22,024 bases of DNA from a virus: IMG/VR virus record IMGVR_UViG_3300036832_001273, positions 1 to 22,024 of that record; one strand, given 5' to 3'. Below the pieces are notes generated by a model. The model saw only the letters and a list, made by a program, of their open reading frames with translations, was not told the origin of the DNA and did not search any database. Shown here in pieces: positions 232 to 7,596 of this stretch. Made by a program: the position numbers and the translations under genes. Each line of letters opens with the position of its first letter. Within the stretch, counting starts at the first letter, position 1.

Positions 232-489
232 TCAGCCTCGGTGCTTCGCCATGATCATCTGCTCGTTCACCTCGATCAACTGACGCACGGTGTCGAGCCA
301 TTGTCCGATCAGCTGCTCGCGGTGCTTGGCGGTCTCAATAGCGCCGCGTGTGTCGAAATGACCGGCGATCCACATGGCGACCAGATCGGCAAGCGCAGCG
401 CCAATAATATCCGGCGGATTGCCGGCGAGAACAGGCCGCACGCGCTCGGCTAGCGACAAGGCGGTGGTGGCATCCCGGCGCGCGCTCAC
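232..489 (-). CDS. Small conserved phage protein of unknown function (GTG start)
   Basis: This 85-residue protein starts at a GTG whose last two bases lie inside the TGA stop of the upstream helix-turn-helix gene (GTGA overlap), which argues for translational coupling and decides the start. The longer frame reaching back to 798 is rejected because it would cover the whole regulator gene. The sequence is mostly helical, with an ALSLAERVRPVLAG segment, a GAALADLVAMWIAGH segment and a C-terminal IGQWLDTVRQLIEVNEQMI helix. I recognise the type (a small protein near phage regulators, with a 'LAxRxRPLLAG...GAALADLxAxWLAGH' layout) but know no function. It has no cysteines and no membrane segment. 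Confidence 0.6.
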   Translation of the reverse strand: MSARRDATTALSLAERVRPVLAGNPPDIIGAALADLVAMWIAGHFDTRGAIETAKHREQLIGQWLDTVRQLIEVNEQMIMAKHRG

Positions 490-722
490 GCCTTTGCCCG
501 CTCGCGCTTGCGCGCTATGTCGCCCAGCTTCGCCAATACCATCCGGGCTACCGCAGCAGGCGCTCCGGGCGGCACCCCCGCCCGCTCCCAGCCCACATAG
601 CTTTGACGACTGACCGGGAAATGTCGACTGAATTGCAGCTGGGTTTCTCCCCAGCGGGCCCGCATCGTGCGCAACCGCTCGCCCAGCGCGCGGTCGCGTG
701 GCCGTCGTTTTTTTGGGTCCAT
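486..722 (-). CDS. Helix-turn-helix transcriptional regulator (XRE/Cro-like)
   Basis: This is a 78-residue basic protein. After a lysine/arginine-rich N-terminus (residues 3-11), residues 14-48 read GERLRTMRARWGETQLQFSR then HFPVSRQSYVGWERAG, the usual layout of an XRE/Cro helix-turn-helix: T/Q-x-x-F-S at the first helix, V-S-R-Q-S-Y for recognition and W-E-x-A-G after it. I placed the start at the ATG at 722 because CAGGAG lies 8 nt before it; the upstream in-frame codon at 761 would lie in the operator region. The gene is first in the leftward operon and diverges from the recombination operon. An inverted repeat at 752-783 lies between the operons, so autoregulation and control of the rightward genes are likely but inferred. 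Confidence 0.75.
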   Translation of the reverse strand: MDPKKRRPRDRALGERLRTMRARWGETQLQFSRHFPVSRQSYVGWERAGVPPGAPAAVARMVLAKLGDIARKRERAKA

Positions 723-751
723 TTGCACACTCCTGGAAAAATTCATTTGTC

Positions 752-790: not shown

Positions 791-930
791 CGCGGCATGG
801 TGTGGCGGGGCCGGGCGTGGCGGGGCGTGGTGCGGCTTGGCGCGGCTGGGCAGGGTGGGGCGCGGCGCGGCTAGGCGGGGCGGGGCGGGGCTGGGCAAGG
901 CATGGCAAGGCAAGACGAGGCAAGGCAAGG
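791..930 (+). repeat. Pentamer array A: 28 units of (C/T)NNGG
   Basis: The 140 nt divide exactly into 28 consecutive 5-nt units. Twenty-seven end in GG (the exception is CAAGA at 921-925) and all begin with C or T, mostly C. There is no insertion or deletion in the register. The 5' part is G/C-rich (CGGGG, CGCGG, CGTGG); the last units are CAAGG, CATGG, CAAGG, CAAGA, CGAGG, CAAGG, CAAGG. The array is in the leader of the rightward recombination operon. A separate Shine-Dalgarno (AAAGGAAG) sits between its end and the ATG at 959. The G-rich strand is the RNA-like strand. It makes up most of the 236-nt non-coding gap. Confidence 0.9.
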
Positions 931-958: not shown

Positions 959-1579
959 ATGGACGCGAAAGTAAAAGACAAAGACGTAGTGAAGATCTCC
1001 CTCCCGACAGAGCTGGTTACAAGAAAGGTTCTGCTGGTCGGGCTCACGGAGATAATGTTCGACCGTTATCCAGGCGACAACGATACCAAGCTCGAGCCGC
1101 ACCAGAAGCTCTACCTCCAACCTGGCGGGTCACGAATTATTGGGCTGCCGGCATTGAACATTATGTCGTTTCTTTCGGCGCACAACACCAATTCTGCGCC
1201 CAAGCGGCTACGCGACCCGCGCAAGTTCAAGAAGATCGCTGACGCGATGCTGTCGTTCTGCTCGATCCGCGAGCAGTTCCTGCCGTTCCTGCGCGACGGC
1301 AAGCCGATCGTGTTTGGCAAGCTGGAGAACGACAGGGACCCGGTGAGCGGGGTGTACGTGCATAGGAGCGTGGCGCGGCTCGACAAGGGCATCCCGAATC
1401 CGAAGGTGCGCCCGGTGCTGCCGCTTGATTGGGCGTTGCAGTTCACCATGGATATTTACCCCAATCGCGAAATAAAAGAGGTTGACGTTCAGAATCTCAT
1501 CGAAGAAGGCGGCCGCGCACTCGGATTAGGTACCTTCCGCGGAGTGTTTGGGAAATTCCGCATCGAACGGTGGGATTGA
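959..1579 (+). CDS. Conserved phage protein of unknown function, first gene of recombination operon
   Basis: This is a 206-residue soluble protein with no signal peptide or membrane segment. I do not know its function. Visible blocks are LLVGLTEIMFDRYPGD (25-40), PHQKLYL (48-54), a REQFLPFLRDGKPI region (104-117), RPVLPLDWALQFTMDI (151-166) and the C-terminal GLGTFRGVFGKFRIERWD (189-206). The last block is a glycine loop of the form G-x-G-x-x-R-x-x-x-G-x-F, which recalls but does not prove a RAMP/RRM-type fold. The start is set by GGAAG 8 nt before the ATG. Being directly upstream of exonuclease and annealing genes, it may take part in DNA recombination or end processing. That role is inferred from position only. 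Pentamer array A precedes it and array B follows 2 nt after its stop. Confidence 0.8.
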   Translation: MDAKVKDKDVVKISLPTELVTRKVLLVGLTEIMFDRYPGDNDTKLEPHQKLYLQPGGSRIIGLPALNIMSFLSAHNTNSAPKRLRDPRKFKKIADAMLSFCSIREQFLPFLRDGKPIVFGKLENDRDPVSGVYVHRSVARLDKGIPNPKVRPVLPLDWALQFTMDIYPNREIKEVDVQNLIEEGGRALGLGTFRGVFGKFRIERWD

Positions 1580-1581
1580 TT

Positions 1582-1711
1582 CGCGGCTAGGCGTGGCTGG
1601 TCAGGGCACGGCTTGGCATGGCGAGGCAAGGCGTGGCCTGACGAGGCGGGGCACGGCGCGGCACGGCATGGCCAGACTGGGCAAGGCATGGCAAGGCTCG
1701 GCAAGGCAAGG
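1582..1711 (+). repeat. Pentamer array B: 26 units of CNNGG
   Basis: The array begins 2 nt after the TGA of the preceding gene and ends 11 nt before the exonuclease ATG, so it fills the intercistronic gap. All 130 nt fall into 26 five-nt units without an indel. Every unit begins with C and 23 end in GG; the exceptions are CTGGT, CCTGA and CCAGA. The run CTGGGCAAGGCATGGCAAGG at 1677-1696 is identical to 891-910 in array A. The final CAAGG followed by AA makes AAGGAA, the Shine-Dalgarno of the exonuclease gene, so the array reads directly into the ribosome site. Confidence 0.9.
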
Positions 1712-1722
1712 AACGAAACGAT

Positions 1723-2511
1723 ATGGCACTCACCGAGAAACAACTAGCCGCCCGCGCTGGTAAACTCACAGCTTCGCGGGTCGCCGTTCTGATGAGGGGT
1801 GACGCCGCAGGCATTCTGCAATTGTACCGAGAGATGATCGGCGAGATTCCTGAGGAGAATCTTGACGACGTGTGGCCGGTGCAGCTCGGCAGCGCCACCG
1901 AGCAACTTTCCTTGGACTGGTTTGAGCGAAAGAACCATATAGCGGTGACCCACCGCGGAGAAGTGGTCGTCCACCCCAAACATTCGTGGGCTGCTTGCAC
2001 GCTGGATGGATGGGTGGATCAGATTAAATGTCCCATAGAAGCCAAACATTGCGGCGGCCGCGAACCAATCGAAATTCTCATTGATCGTTATCAACCACAA
2101 ATGCAGTACCAGATGTGGGTCACTGAAGCCGCCCAGTGCGCGCTATCCATCATTCTCGGCGCCAATGAACCGGTCGTGGAATACATAAGCCGCCATGACG
2201 CCTACATTGAGCAGATGGTTGATCGGGCGGACTATTTTCTCATGTGCGTCGCACTACGCAAGCCGCCGGTGCAACTGGCGCCGGTGGCCCCGCCGATCGA
2301 GCCGACCGCCGAGATAAACATGCAGGGCAACGAGAAGTGGGCGACGCAGGCGCTGCGCTGGCTGCAGACCCACGGCGCCGCCGACGTTGCCAAGGATAGC
2401 GAGAAGATCCTCAAGTCATTGGTGCCGCCGGAGGCCAAGCGCTGCTTTGGCCACGGCGTCAAAATTAGTCGCGATCGCGCTGGTCGCCTGTCGCTGCGAG
2501 AGGGAGACTGA
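1723..2511 (+). CDS. YqaJ/lambda-type phage exonuclease
   Basis: This 262-residue protein has the landmarks of the YqaJ/lambda-exonuclease branch of the PD-(D/E)XK superfamily. These are GKLTASRV with T16-A17-S18 near the N-terminus, a glutamate at E60 (GSATEQ), the metal-binding D95 in ACTLDGWV, E106-A-K108 in PIEAKH, and a YQPQMQYQMWV helix (123-133) corresponding to the conserved Q-containing motif. Such enzymes degrade one strand of double-stranded DNA ends 5' to 3' and hand the 3' single strand to an annealing protein. The next gene, 3 nt downstream, is an ERF annealing protein, giving a complete two-component recombination pair. Residues 185-262 form an additional C-terminal region after a proline-rich linker. 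The start is set by AAGGAA from the end of array B. Confidence 0.88.
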   Translation: MALTEKQLAARAGKLTASRVAVLMRGDAAGILQLYREMIGEIPEENLDDVWPVQLGSATEQLSLDWFERKNHIAVTHRGEVVVHPKHSWAACTLDGWVDQIKCPIEAKHCGGREPIEILIDRYQPQMQYQMWVTEAAQCALSIILGANEPVVEYISRHDAYIEQMVDRADYFLMCVALRKPPVQLAPVAPPIEPTAEINMQGNEKWATQALRWLQTHGAADVAKDSEKILKSLVPPEAKRCFGHGVKISRDRAGRLSLREGD

Positions 2512-2514
2512 AAC

Positions 2515-3444
2515 ATGACCGACACCGAAAAACCAGAGAAGCGGCCGGCGCGCGTGATCGATATATTGCCGCCGCCGAATCCGATGCAGATCCTGTCGCG
2601 CGCCGTCGCCGATGGCGCCTCACTGGAGGTGCTGGAAAAGCTGATGGGGCTGCAGGAACGCTGGGAAGCCAACGAGGCCCGCAAGGCATTCGAGAAGGCG
2701 ATGGCTGCGGCCTCGACTGAAATGCCGGCCCTGGTGAAGAACCGCGCGGTCAAATTTGGCACTACATCCTACAAGCACGAGGACCTGGCCGAGGTGGTGA
2801 GCGCCATCGCGCCGGTGCTCGGCAAGCACGGCCTGTCGCACCGGTTCGAGACCACCACCGAGCCCGGGCGGATCACAGTCACCTGCATCATCTCGCACGA
2901 GCTGGGCCACTCGATCCGCAATTCCTTGTCGGGGCCGGCCGACAACAGCGGCGGCAAGAACGCCATCCAGTCGATCGGCTCGAGCATCACGTACTTGAGC
3001 CGTTACGCGCTCAAGGCCGCGCTCGGCTTGGCTGCCGCCCACGACGACGACGGCAACAGCACCACCGCCGTCGACAAGGAGCCGGTGGCCAAGCCCGACG
3101 CCATGAAGCGGCCCGCACCGCCGCCTCCGCCGCCTCCTCCGCCAGAGCCTGAAAAGGCCGCACCCAACCCCAGGCTCAACATCAAGCAGATCATGGCGCT
3201 CGAGCAGGCGGCGCGCGCGGCCGCAGCGAAGGGCAGCGCAGAATTTACCCTGTTCTGGCGCACCCACGCCACCGACAACGAGCGCGCCATCATCAAGGGG
3301 CTGGGAGTGGAGTTGGCGGCCATCCGGGACGCGGCCGATGCCCGCATCATGGCGGAGGCCGCCCATGAAGCCGGTGAAACCACCGACATTTACAACCCCG
3401 AAACCGGCGAGGTGGAGCACGGCGAGCCGGGGCAGGGGACATGA
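2515..3444 (+). CDS. erf: ERF-family single-strand annealing protein
   Basis: This is a 309-residue protein. Residues 45-180 match the ERF domain: LQERWEANEARKAFEKAMAA, KNRAVKFGTTSYKHEDLAEV, VLGKHGLSHRFETT, then IGSSITYLSRYALKAALGLA and the acidic H-D-D-D-G end, typical of the family. ERF proteins anneal complementary single strands during phage recombination and genome circularisation. A run of nine prolines (202-210) links to a C-terminal region (220-309) with two or three predicted helices, whose role is unknown. The gene starts 3 nt after the exonuclease stop, with GGGAG inside the end of that gene as ribosome site. Its stop overlaps the next start (ATGA). It is expected to act with the upstream exonuclease. 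Confidence 0.9.
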   Translation: MTDTEKPEKRPARVIDILPPPNPMQILSRAVADGASLEVLEKLMGLQERWEANEARKAFEKAMAAASTEMPALVKNRAVKFGTTSYKHEDLAEVVSAIAPVLGKHGLSHRFETTTEPGRITVTCIISHELGHSIRNSLSGPADNSGGKNAIQSIGSSITYLSRYALKAALGLAAAHDDDGNSTTAVDKEPVAKPDAMKRPAPPPPPPPPPEPEKAAPNPRLNIKQIMALEQAARAAAAKGSAEFTLFWRTHATDNERAIIKGLGVELAAIRDAADARIMAEAAHEAGETTDIYNPETGEVEHGEPGQGT

Positions 3445-6054: not shown

Positions 6055-6351
6055 TTAGACCCACTCGATCACAGTACAGGTCCCGGCCGCACTGGCGAGC
6101 GCCCGCCAGCCGCAGGCGCACTTCAAGTTGTCGATCTGCAGGAAGCCGCCGGGCGAGAGCTGGATGCCGGTGTTGGTCGCCGCCGCCACCGTGCCGCTCA
6201 GCGGCTGCGGCACCAAGTAGAGGATGGCGGTGGCGTTGGGGTTGCTGAGAATCAACCCCTTGCGCTGCGCATTGGCGGGAATGAGCAGGCCATCGGCAAG
6301 ACCGACCGCCACCTGGGTGAGGATGGGAATGTCGCTGGTGACGCTGGTCAT
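6055..6351 (-). CDS. Small beta-rich virion-associated protein, paralogue of 16707..17033
   Basis: This is a 98-residue protein from the ATG at 6351, which has AAGGAA 8 nt upstream at the end of pentamer array C; an in-frame TTG at 6357 is the alternative start. Residues 20-60 read IPANAQRKGLILSNPNATAI and so on, ending with CTVIEWV. The 108-residue protein at 16707..17033 has the same plan: VPANPSRAGLYVFNPGTVAI, a Q-x-x-x-G-I-x-x-x-P region and an ITLWEHY end. Both look like one small beta-sandwich. The family is often seen next to phage fibre genes, so a capsid/tail decoration or fibre-accessory role is plausible but inferred. Confidence 0.65.
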   Translation of the reverse strand: MTSVTSDIPILTQVAVGLADGLLIPANAQRKGLILSNPNATAILYLVPQPLSGTVAAATNTGIQLSPGGFLQIDNLKCACGWRALASAAGTCTVIEWV

Positions 6352-6361
6352 TTTCAAAATT

Positions 6362-6446
6362 CCTTGCCTTGCCTCGCCGCGCCGGGCCGCGCCGAGCCAG
6401 GCCCTGCCCGGCCGAGCCTCGCCGTGCCTGGCCGCGCCCAGCCTCG
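6362..6446 (-). repeat. Pentamer array C: 17 perfect CNNGG units
   Basis: Read on the minus strand, the 85 nt are 17 consecutive C-N-N-G-G units with no exception and no indel. The array starts 1 nt after the stop of the 55-residue gene and ends 10 nt before the ATG at 6351, filling the gap. The 3' units are CGCGG, CCCGG, CGCGG, CGAGG, CAAGG, CAAGG, and the following AA completes the AAGGAA ribosome site. The last units closely match the end of array D. Confidence 0.9.
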
Positions 6447-6626: not shown

Positions 6627-6890
6627 TCAGTGCGGGGGCGCTTCAGCATGTCCGGTCGAGCGAAAAATCAAGGCATGAACCGAATTGCCATCGACCAACG
6701 CGCCTCCTTTCAAATCATACGCAGGCGCGAGGCGATCGCCCTTTTCAGGTTTGACACTGTCGAACATATGGCCAGCTCTCTCGTTAAATGTCATGGCGTG
6801 CGCTGGCGTCGGAATTTGGAGATAATGAATCCAGATCAAGCCGAGGCTGAAGCCGGATAGAAATAAGAGAGTCAGAAGAGAGGTTCTCAT
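6627..6890 (-). CDS. Small protein with N-terminal signal or anchor sequence
   Basis: This is an 87-residue protein. Residues 3-24 are hydrophobic (SLLTLLFLSGFSLGLIWIHY) after a single arginine, and P-T-P-A-H-A at 27-32 fits a signal-peptidase A-x-A site; otherwise the segment is an N-terminal anchor. The remaining ~55 residues are hydrophilic with no cysteine and no known motif. The gene lies in a stretch of small membrane-type genes, so a lysis accessory (spanin- or holin-like) or a host-surface role is possible; none can be shown. AAGGA lies 6 nt before the ATG and can pair with an upstream TCCTT (see the hairpin entry). Confidence 0.6.
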   Translation of the reverse strand: MRTSLLTLLFLSGFSLGLIWIHYLQIPTPAHAMTFNERAGHMFDSVKPEKGDRLAPAYDLKGGALVDGNSVHALIFRSTGHAEAPPH

Positions 6891-6920: not shown

Positions 6921-7020
6921 CCTTGCCATGCCTTGCCTCGCCGGGCCGCGCCAAGCCAGGCCAAGCCACGCCTTGCCCCACCATGCCCGGCCGTGCCTAG
7001 CCACGCCTTGCTAGGCCTTG
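6921..7020 (-). repeat. Pentamer array D: 20 units of CNNGG, entering the upstream CDS
   Basis: Read on the minus strand, the 100 nt form 20 units in unbroken 5-nt register; 19 end in GG (the exception is CCTAG, which contains the stop codon) and one begins with T. The first two units lie inside the end of the 140-residue gene, supplying its last codons and its TAG. The 3' end reads CGCGG, CCCGG, CGAGG, CAAGG, CATGG, CAAGG. The start codon of the next gene is 30 nt beyond, with its own ribosome site. Confidence 0.88.
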
Positions 7021-7433
7021 GGCTTTTCACCGGCCATTCCGGCGCGCCAGTATATTGCCACGACGGGGAGGAACACTGTTAGCGAAAAGATACCTCCAGC
7101 GACGATGCGCCATGGCTGCGGGTCCCACGCGATGCCGCCCCAAATCAGACAAGCCGCCATCAGGCAGATGAGACCGAGAAGGCGGGCCGAAAGCACGTCA
7201 AGGGCAAGCTCGATCGCAGCCGGATACTGCATCTTAATTTGGGCTGTCGAGGGTGGCGTGACCACCACAGGTGGGGGCGGTGCGACCGGGATGGGCTTTA
7301 CCAAGTTTTCCGGCTCGGGCGGTAGGAAACTGCCACGCCCGGATGCAAGGTGCAGCACCCGCGGACCGTCGACCAGGTCAGCCTCGGTGACGCCGTCTGG
7401 TAGAGGCTTATCGCTTGGTGAAGAATGCTCCAT
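7011..7433 (-). CDS. Small two-helix membrane protein
   Basis: This is a 140-residue protein. Residues 1-70 are hydrophilic with a proline-rich stretch (VAPPPPVVVTPP). Two membrane segments follow at about 84-102 (RLLGLICLMAACLIWGG) and 109-127 (IVAGGIFSLTVFLPVVAIYW), then a short basic tail. The size and two-helix plan fit a holin, but the long proline-rich N-terminus is unusual and no endolysin is visible beside it. GGAGG lies 8 nt before the ATG, and the start overlaps the preceding gene by 26 nt. The last codons are made of pentamer-array sequence, which suggests the array has grown into, or replaced, the original 3' end. Confidence 0.65.
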   Translation of the reverse strand: MEHSSPSDKPLPDGVTEADLVDGPRVLHLASGRGSFLPPEPENLVKPIPVAPPPPVVVTPPSTAQIKMQYPAAIELALDVLSARLLGLICLMAACLIWGGIAWDPQPWRIVAGGIFSLTVFLPVVAIYWRAGMAGEKPKA

Positions 7434-7596
7434 CGGTCGCGCCTCCGTCCTGGATCTTGTGCCGGATCATCAGCACCTTGGCCCCCGCCTCGATCGCCTT
7501 CAGGCGCTCGGTGTTGGTGAGGGTGTCCTTCTTGAGCATGTCGATAATGCCGCGCTCCATCCGGTCGAGCAGGTCATCGCTTTTTTTCGCCGTCAT
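7408..7596 (-). CDS. Small conserved helical phage protein
   Basis: This 62-residue, mostly helical, charged protein reads KKSDDLLDRMERGIIDMLKK then TERLKAIEAGAKVLMIRHKI. I recognise this layout (D-L-L-D/E-R-M-E-R ... T-x-x-E-R-x-x-A-I-x-A-G-A-K-L-L-x-I-R-H-K-I) from small phage proteins near structural genes; the function is unknown. The ATG overlaps the stop of the 676-residue gene (ATGA), which sets the start. Confidence 0.7.
   Translation of the reverse strand: MTAKKSDDLLDRMERGIIDMLKKDTLTNTERLKAIEAGAKVLMIRHKIQDGGATDGAFFTKR

Follow-up and report, generated by a model that had tools for sequence, protein, structure and literature searches.

The window analysed here, the whole 22,024-nt stretch of viral DNA at positions 1 to 22,024 of the IMG/VR virus record IMGVR_UViG_3300036832_001273, contains four tandem arrays of a five-nucleotide GGC-NN unit (arrays A–D) that converge on the same 3′ end, and the question raised by this locus is what constrains that end. 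Alternating GGY and hypervariable NN elements followed by a constant 3′ tail make up the guide RNAs (vrRNAs) of VIPR, phage-borne systems built on a small RAMP protein named Vipr, which were described in 2026 (preprint) as possibly ancestral to CRISPR effectors and of which seven types are distinguished (PMC13142463). Published vrRNA arrays have 9–16 units, and their NN dinucleotides target DNA by a one-nucleotide-skip rule; the named examples include phage SUSP1 and Pseudomonas fulva prophage types, and vap (vipr-accessory) genes are also named (PMC13142463). The main text of that article holds no statement of the last NN units being fixed. In the preliminary description of the window, the downstream end of the arrays was taken to be their constrained part, and to be so by becoming the ribosome-binding site of the next gene.

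Repeat arrays of the window

The four arrays, and the stretch of array B on which the question bears, are as follows.

794–930, plus strand: array A, candidate vrRNA(s) and leader of the Vipr gene; 27 GGC-NN units (794–928) and a final GG
1585–1711, plus strand: array B; 25 GGC-NN units (1585–1709) and a final GG, starting 5 nt past the Vipr stop codon
1677–1711, plus strand: 3′ end of array B, units TG AA AT AA TC AA AA; putative constant 3′ module of the arrays
6362–6443, minus strand: array C; 16 unbroken GGC-NN units (6364–6443) and a final GG, about 5 kb from the Vipr gene
6921–7017, minus strand: array D; 19 GGC-NN units (6923–7017) and a final GG, beginning at the stop codon of the ORF 7011–7433

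Array scores for A–D ranged from 48 to 69, against at most 15 among 100 randomizations of the window by a first-order Markov model. Defects in the GGC scaffold are few and scattered in A, B and D and absent from C. Long ORFs cross the arrays, but a coding role was rejected, as the unit measures five rather than three nucleotides and all four arrays are intergenic. Rfam at gathering thresholds returned no match in the window, hence no hammerhead was seen there, and no CRISPR-like direct-repeat array was found in the whole window, the two repeat families detected lying outside the arrays and being devoid of regular unique spacers. Arrays A, C and D are predicted to fold no better than shuffled sequences (z scores of −0.71, −0.57 and −1.42, respectively) and array B moderately better (z = −2.84); stable hairpins directly follow arrays in the relatives L006 (z = −3.42) and L018 (z = −4.39). 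Arrays C and D lie among apparent late genes on the opposite strand, about 5 kb away, and are possibly guides of another stage.

The final units are those given in the preliminary description, each string being located in the window: CGAGG-CAAGG-CAAGG in A, CTCGG-CAAGG-CAAGG in B and, on the minus strand, CGAGG-CAAGG-CAAGG in C and CGAGG-CAAGG-CATGG-CAAGG in D. The 20 nt at 1677–1696 are also identical to those at 891–910 (CTGGGCAAGGCATGGCAAGG). A run of at least four NN units common to A and B arose in 40 of 2000 shuffles (about 2%), so that this identity is by itself modest evidence; the notable part of the likeness between A and B is their common register near the 3′ end.

The genes and elements that surround arrays A and B are listed below.

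486–723, minus strand: gene for a small HTH protein, divergent from array A (Pfam HTH_31, E = 3.2e-4, 21.4 bits, below the cut-off of 27; PHROG transcriptional repressor, E = 1.7e-4)
752–783, no strand assigned: inverted repeat (GTCTTGACACGAGCGC / GCGGTACTGTCAAGAC) in the space separating the HTH gene from array A, with 81% complementarity between its two 16-nt arms
959–1579, plus strand: predicted Vipr homologue, a 206-residue RAMP-fold protein with a C-terminal glycine-rich loop (GLGTFRGVFGK), directly after array A
1723–2511, plus strand: YqaJ/RecE-like exonuclease gene, downstream of array B (PHROG 434, E = 3e-32; Pfam YqaJ, E = 2.9e-14)
2515–3444, plus strand: Erf-like single-strand annealing protein gene (PHROG 155, E = 4e-35)

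The ORF of the HTH protein (486–761) opens at a GTG, and the ATG at 723, which has a Shine–Dalgarno sequence, is the likelier start. The protein is a candidate repressor and the inverted repeat a candidate operator and promoter region for an operon of array A and the Vipr gene. Since array A begins just past the inverted repeat and opposite the HTH gene, a repressor may control both the array and the Vipr gene.

A RAMP-fold protein of the Vipr family

Homologues of the protein encoded by 959–1579 were collected from IMG/VR by protein (7 sequences) and by profile (41 loci, of which 7 repeat the contigs of L001–L007), together with one bacterial metagenome-assembled genome (MAG) contig. The alignment of 33 sequences used below omits L007, L019, L048, near-duplicates and L040, the start of which lies beyond the called ORF. 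Searched against all PDB sequences, its profile matched SUSP1 Vipr (PDB entry 36pp) with an E value of 7.2e-7, the runner-up having an E value of 1.2; a profile of seven sequences had already matched SUSP1 Vipr at 1.1e-4. With hhalign, the match to the SUSP1 coding sequence at 28474–29061 had a probability of 95.7% and an E value of 8.7e-9 over 52 columns. Similarity to SUSP1 Vipr at the sequence level extends over the C-terminal 52–54 residues only, within the C-terminal third, which contains the glycine-rich loop.

A model calculated with AlphaFold2 from the 33 homologues reached a pLDDT of 93.2 and a pTM of 0.85, compared with a pLDDT of 32.7 from the single sequence. The best 50 Foldseek matches listed from the PDB were all type III/VII RAMP subunits or Cas7-11, and entry 36pp was absent among these 50; VIA gave Z scores of up to 12.7 to Csm3/Cas7 chains, with 166 residues aligned at an r.m.s.d. 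of 4.2. The protein is assigned to the RAMP-fold Vipr family, whole-chain membership resting on fold and context. It shares this fold with the Csm3/Cas7 RAMPs of class 1 CRISPR–Cas systems and, as an idea, the RAMP filament on a guide RNA, and differs from them in that the guide code is spread over five-nucleotide units.

Pfam gave no match for the Vipr homologue, PADLOC returned nothing for three proteins, and a tblastn search with the Vipr homologue against isolated phages and plasmids found none. The carriers are IMG/VR virus records (the window and its relatives) and the one bacterial MAG contig.

Arrays accompany the Vipr gene

Arrays lie beside the Vipr gene in 42 of 43 loci, the window included: in 41 at the standard threshold and in L028, where arrays with a mixed GGA/GGC scaffold (193–1132) adjoin an intact Vipr homologue and still end in GGCAAGGTT. 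One of the L028 arrays is followed by a terminator-like hairpin. The sole locus without arrays, L007, has a frameshifted Vipr homologue (near 6935–7563), and its arrays seem to have been lost along with the protein. Among 26 relatives (mostly whole contigs, some of them near-duplicates), all 64 arrays are on the Vipr strand and within 2.8 kb of the gene, the two relatives without arrays at the same threshold being the frameshifted one and that of L028. No array was detected in 43 unrelated viral loci (399 kb), and the same detector found three arrays around the SUSP1 Vipr gene. In 34 of the 35 loci that have a downstream array, the distance from the end of the Vipr ORF to the start of this array lies between −1 and +26 nt.

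The arrays have a median length of 18 units (range 9–89), and 43 of 102 have no more than 16. In L019 (5995–6765) the Vipr frame continues into the downstream array, which represents either an unusual C-terminus or a frameshift in the record. Internal block duplications and near-identical adjacent arrays occur in L001 (6732–6906), L005 (6574–6822) and L006 (7599–7764); such block copies look as if guides to one target had been copied and then varied by whole units.

There is no conserved neighbouring gene, the commonest cluster being present in 7 of 33 loci; one neighbour listing took plus-strand genes only, and adjacent minus-strand genes would escape it. YqaJ, RecT, helicase and metallophosphoesterase genes are among the neighbours of the Vipr gene; these partly resemble the nucleases and helicases of VIPR types III–V, yet are ordinary phage recombination genes as well.

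On these grounds, arrays A–D are very probably the vrRNA arrays of a VIPR system. In common with the systems of SUSP1 and P. fulva, a phage RAMP protein of about 20 kDa is flanked by GGY/hypervariable-NN arrays on both sides of its gene and on its strand, and a constant 3′ end, seen here in the A-rich last units, follows the variable part. The differences concern the scaffold, mostly GGT in SUSP1 and GGC here; the ends, since the three SUSP1 arrays close with GT, AT and AT followed by GGGTRG and the last NN units here are fixed as AA; and the lengths, which at 9–89 units often exceed the published 9–16. Unlike in VIPR as published, two of the arrays of the window are far away on the other strand, in which they also differ from the 64 arrays of the relatives, and arrays lie in the 5′ leaders of genes.

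The variable code ends on AA

The check proposed in the preliminary description, a count of conservation unit by unit starting at the 3′ end, was applied to 100 complete, non-redundant arrays, obtained from 118 by removing 16 duplicates and two truncated arrays. A sharp gradient was found, which supports the downstream end being the constrained part. NN is AA in 64% of the arrays at unit 2 and in 60% at unit 3 from the end, compared with 11% of the 1709 body units. With the end of an array defined as its last GGC unit, AA occupies 157 of the 300 last-three units, whereas 2000 within-array shuffles gave 58 on average and never more than 79; among the first three units AA occurs in 20 of 300. 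Without the four arrays of the window, the proportion at unit 2 is 62/96. Counting the second N alone, A is found in 80, 81, 72, 45 and 28 of the 100 arrays from the last unit to the fifth-last, respectively, a gradient that spans about four units. The NN dinucleotides vary along the array until, over its final two to four units, they converge on AA. The preliminary description had also called the 5′ parts of the arrays far more degenerate, which is correct for the NN dinucleotides and incorrect for the GGC scaffold, which is kept at 79–100% at every position across the relatives and shows no gradient towards the 3′ end.

Tails following the arrays are only modestly more alike within loci (0.51) than between loci (0.39), the corresponding values for the 5′ flanks being 0.44 and 0.38. 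Repeated tails are clear by eye in L004, L005, L006, L013, L015, L039 and L044, and less so in the window.

A common end could also be a trace of descent, the arrays of one genome being recent duplicates of each other rather than bearers of a constant module. Arrays A and B do share, besides the 20-nt block, six of their last 7–8 units if one extra unit in A is allowed, and C and D both end in GC CC .. GA AA. The convergence nevertheless persists when one array is taken from each of 35 loci (62% AA at unit 2), it is found in arrays with differing bodies, and outside the last units the longest NN run shared by the other array pairs is at the level expected by chance; recent duplication is for these reasons an unlikely source of the shared ends.

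Pentanucleotide slippage would account for the arrays in yet another manner, as functionless simple-sequence expansions with the 3′ GGCAA units as the freshest. Pure GGCAA runs do exist in some arrays (as in L011, on the minus strand), as do internal block duplications (L001), and A and B have last units in common, as neighbouring duplicates would. A free expansion is difficult to reconcile with the tie of the arrays to the Vipr gene and its strand (64/64) and their absence from the 43 unrelated loci, with the high NN diversity of the body next to a GGC scaffold kept about equally everywhere, and with an end rule that recurs in 35 loci, so that we regard this explanation as extremely improbable. 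Slippage or shared ancestry could still have contributed part of the A-rich end.

Ribosome-binding site or guide module

The distances between the arrays and the following genes agree with the preliminary description. From the final GG to the ATG there are 11 nt in B (1712–1722) and 10 nt in C (6361–6352, with the ATG at 6351), and in both cases the AAGGAA furnished by the array end is the sole Shine–Dalgarno-like string seen before the start codon. In A and D the gaps are 28 nt (931–958) and 30 nt (6920–6891, with the ATG at 6890), and a separate ribosome site, AAAGGAAG or AAAGGAAA, is present. It could thus be argued that CAAGG units act as Shine–Dalgarno-like or ribosome standby sites, the last of which is retained as the ribosome-binding site of the next gene.

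What decides between a translation signal and a part of the guide is whether the end is kept where no gene follows. When 99 arrays were sorted by what comes next (three of 102, at contig ends, being omitted), 36 preceded another array, 44 an ORF start with a Shine–Dalgarno-like string and 19 neither. AA occupies unit 2 in 25 of the 36, 26 of the 44 and 13 of the 19 arrays, and unit 3 in 19, 22 and 10 of them, respectively. At least one AA is found among the last three units of every array that precedes another array (36/36), compared with 36/44 of those that precede an ORF. The constraint therefore exists without a downstream gene, and the claim that the end is held by becoming a ribosome-binding site is not sustained; because the AA end is equally kept before arrays, it is most likely to be a constant module at the 3′ end of the guide RNA.

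Of the 44 arrays that precede an ORF, 16, including B and C of the window, are near enough to the start codon to provide its Shine–Dalgarno sequence, and in one of the 16 (array A of the window) the start picked is an upstream ATG that does not belong to the Vipr gene. A separate and stronger Shine–Dalgarno sequence, such as the AAGGAGG of L018 and L001, is present in the tail of many arrays that precede an ORF; moreover, the conserved signal sits in NN, whereas the GG of every unit would presumably suffice for ribosome binding. Conservation of the last CAAGG unit as a translation signal is accordingly very unlikely. The overlap with the ribosome-binding site in B and C is real yet looks secondary, a product of the packing of arrays between co-oriented genes; it may help the phage and leaves the AA rule unexplained.

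Search for targets

The variable part of the arrays was compared with possible targets. Searches by the one-nucleotide-skip rule and by other skips (four lengths) gave chance-level scores in the 43 family loci, and one seed of array D, with up to three mismatches, matched none of 42 whole records. Against IMG/VR, the seeds of arrays C, B and D had 5, 34 and 4 matches, respectively, none convincingly extended, the best match of array B agreeing at 15 of 34 outside bases compared with about nine expected. The L005 seed had ten matches in IMG/VR, none of which extends. With the L006 seed there were three, each extending by one unit, two of them at identical, promoter-like sites and one in a short phage ORF. 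The identical sites (L166, 6495–6520; L167, 7170–7195) match ten consecutive NN units of the L006 array by the one-nucleotide-skip rule. The base composition at the L006-seed sites is unlike that of L006, and they were discounted as targets and may be due to chance. A seed from SUSP1, used as a positive control, had 11 matches, none convincing; as this control was also negative, the target negatives are uninformative either way.

Among six classes, the NN composition is nearest to that of sense codon positions 1–2, with a Kullback–Leibler (KL) value of 0.156 against 0.20–0.38. Such a likeness would be expected if the skipped base is the wobble base, but it is a weak and loose fit that may have other causes.

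Conclusions

Taken as a whole, it is highly probable that the window carries the vrRNA guide arrays of a VIPR system in a tailed phage, with a constant 3′ module and a secondary overlap of this module with ribosome-binding sites. The arrays would be transcribed together with the co-oriented neighbouring genes, and Vipr subunits would coat the GGY-NN repeats by binding the GGY positions, leaving the variable NN pairs to pick DNA targets in competing phages by the one-nucleotide-skip rule. The A-rich last units, together with the short A/U-rich stretch behind them, may form a constant 3′ module that marks the end of the guide or the start of Vipr assembly, comparable to the tail of the SUSP1 vrRNA. 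With the arrays packed between co-transcribed genes, this module coincides with the ribosome-binding site of the following gene in B and C, and not in A and D.

A more tentative and rather doubtful extension is that the module has a second role as the ribosome-binding region of the following gene, whose translation would be shut off by Vipr assembly on the array. If such feedback exists, its targets would be vipr itself (after A), the RecE-like exonuclease gene (after B) and late genes (after C and D), and an RNA-level loop within the arrays would keep guide loading in balance with protein supply.

The window and its relatives represent a VIPR-like family from uncultivated phages that comprises roughly 100 distinct arrays, from which a measurable guide rule emerges: the hypervariable NN code stops short of the 3′ end by two to four units, over which AA takes its place. 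The rule predicts the end point of the guide, the units dispensable for targeting and the part that Vipr recognizes first. As arrays are also placed in front of genes, as their 5′ leaders, assembly of the guide and translation could interfere with each other.
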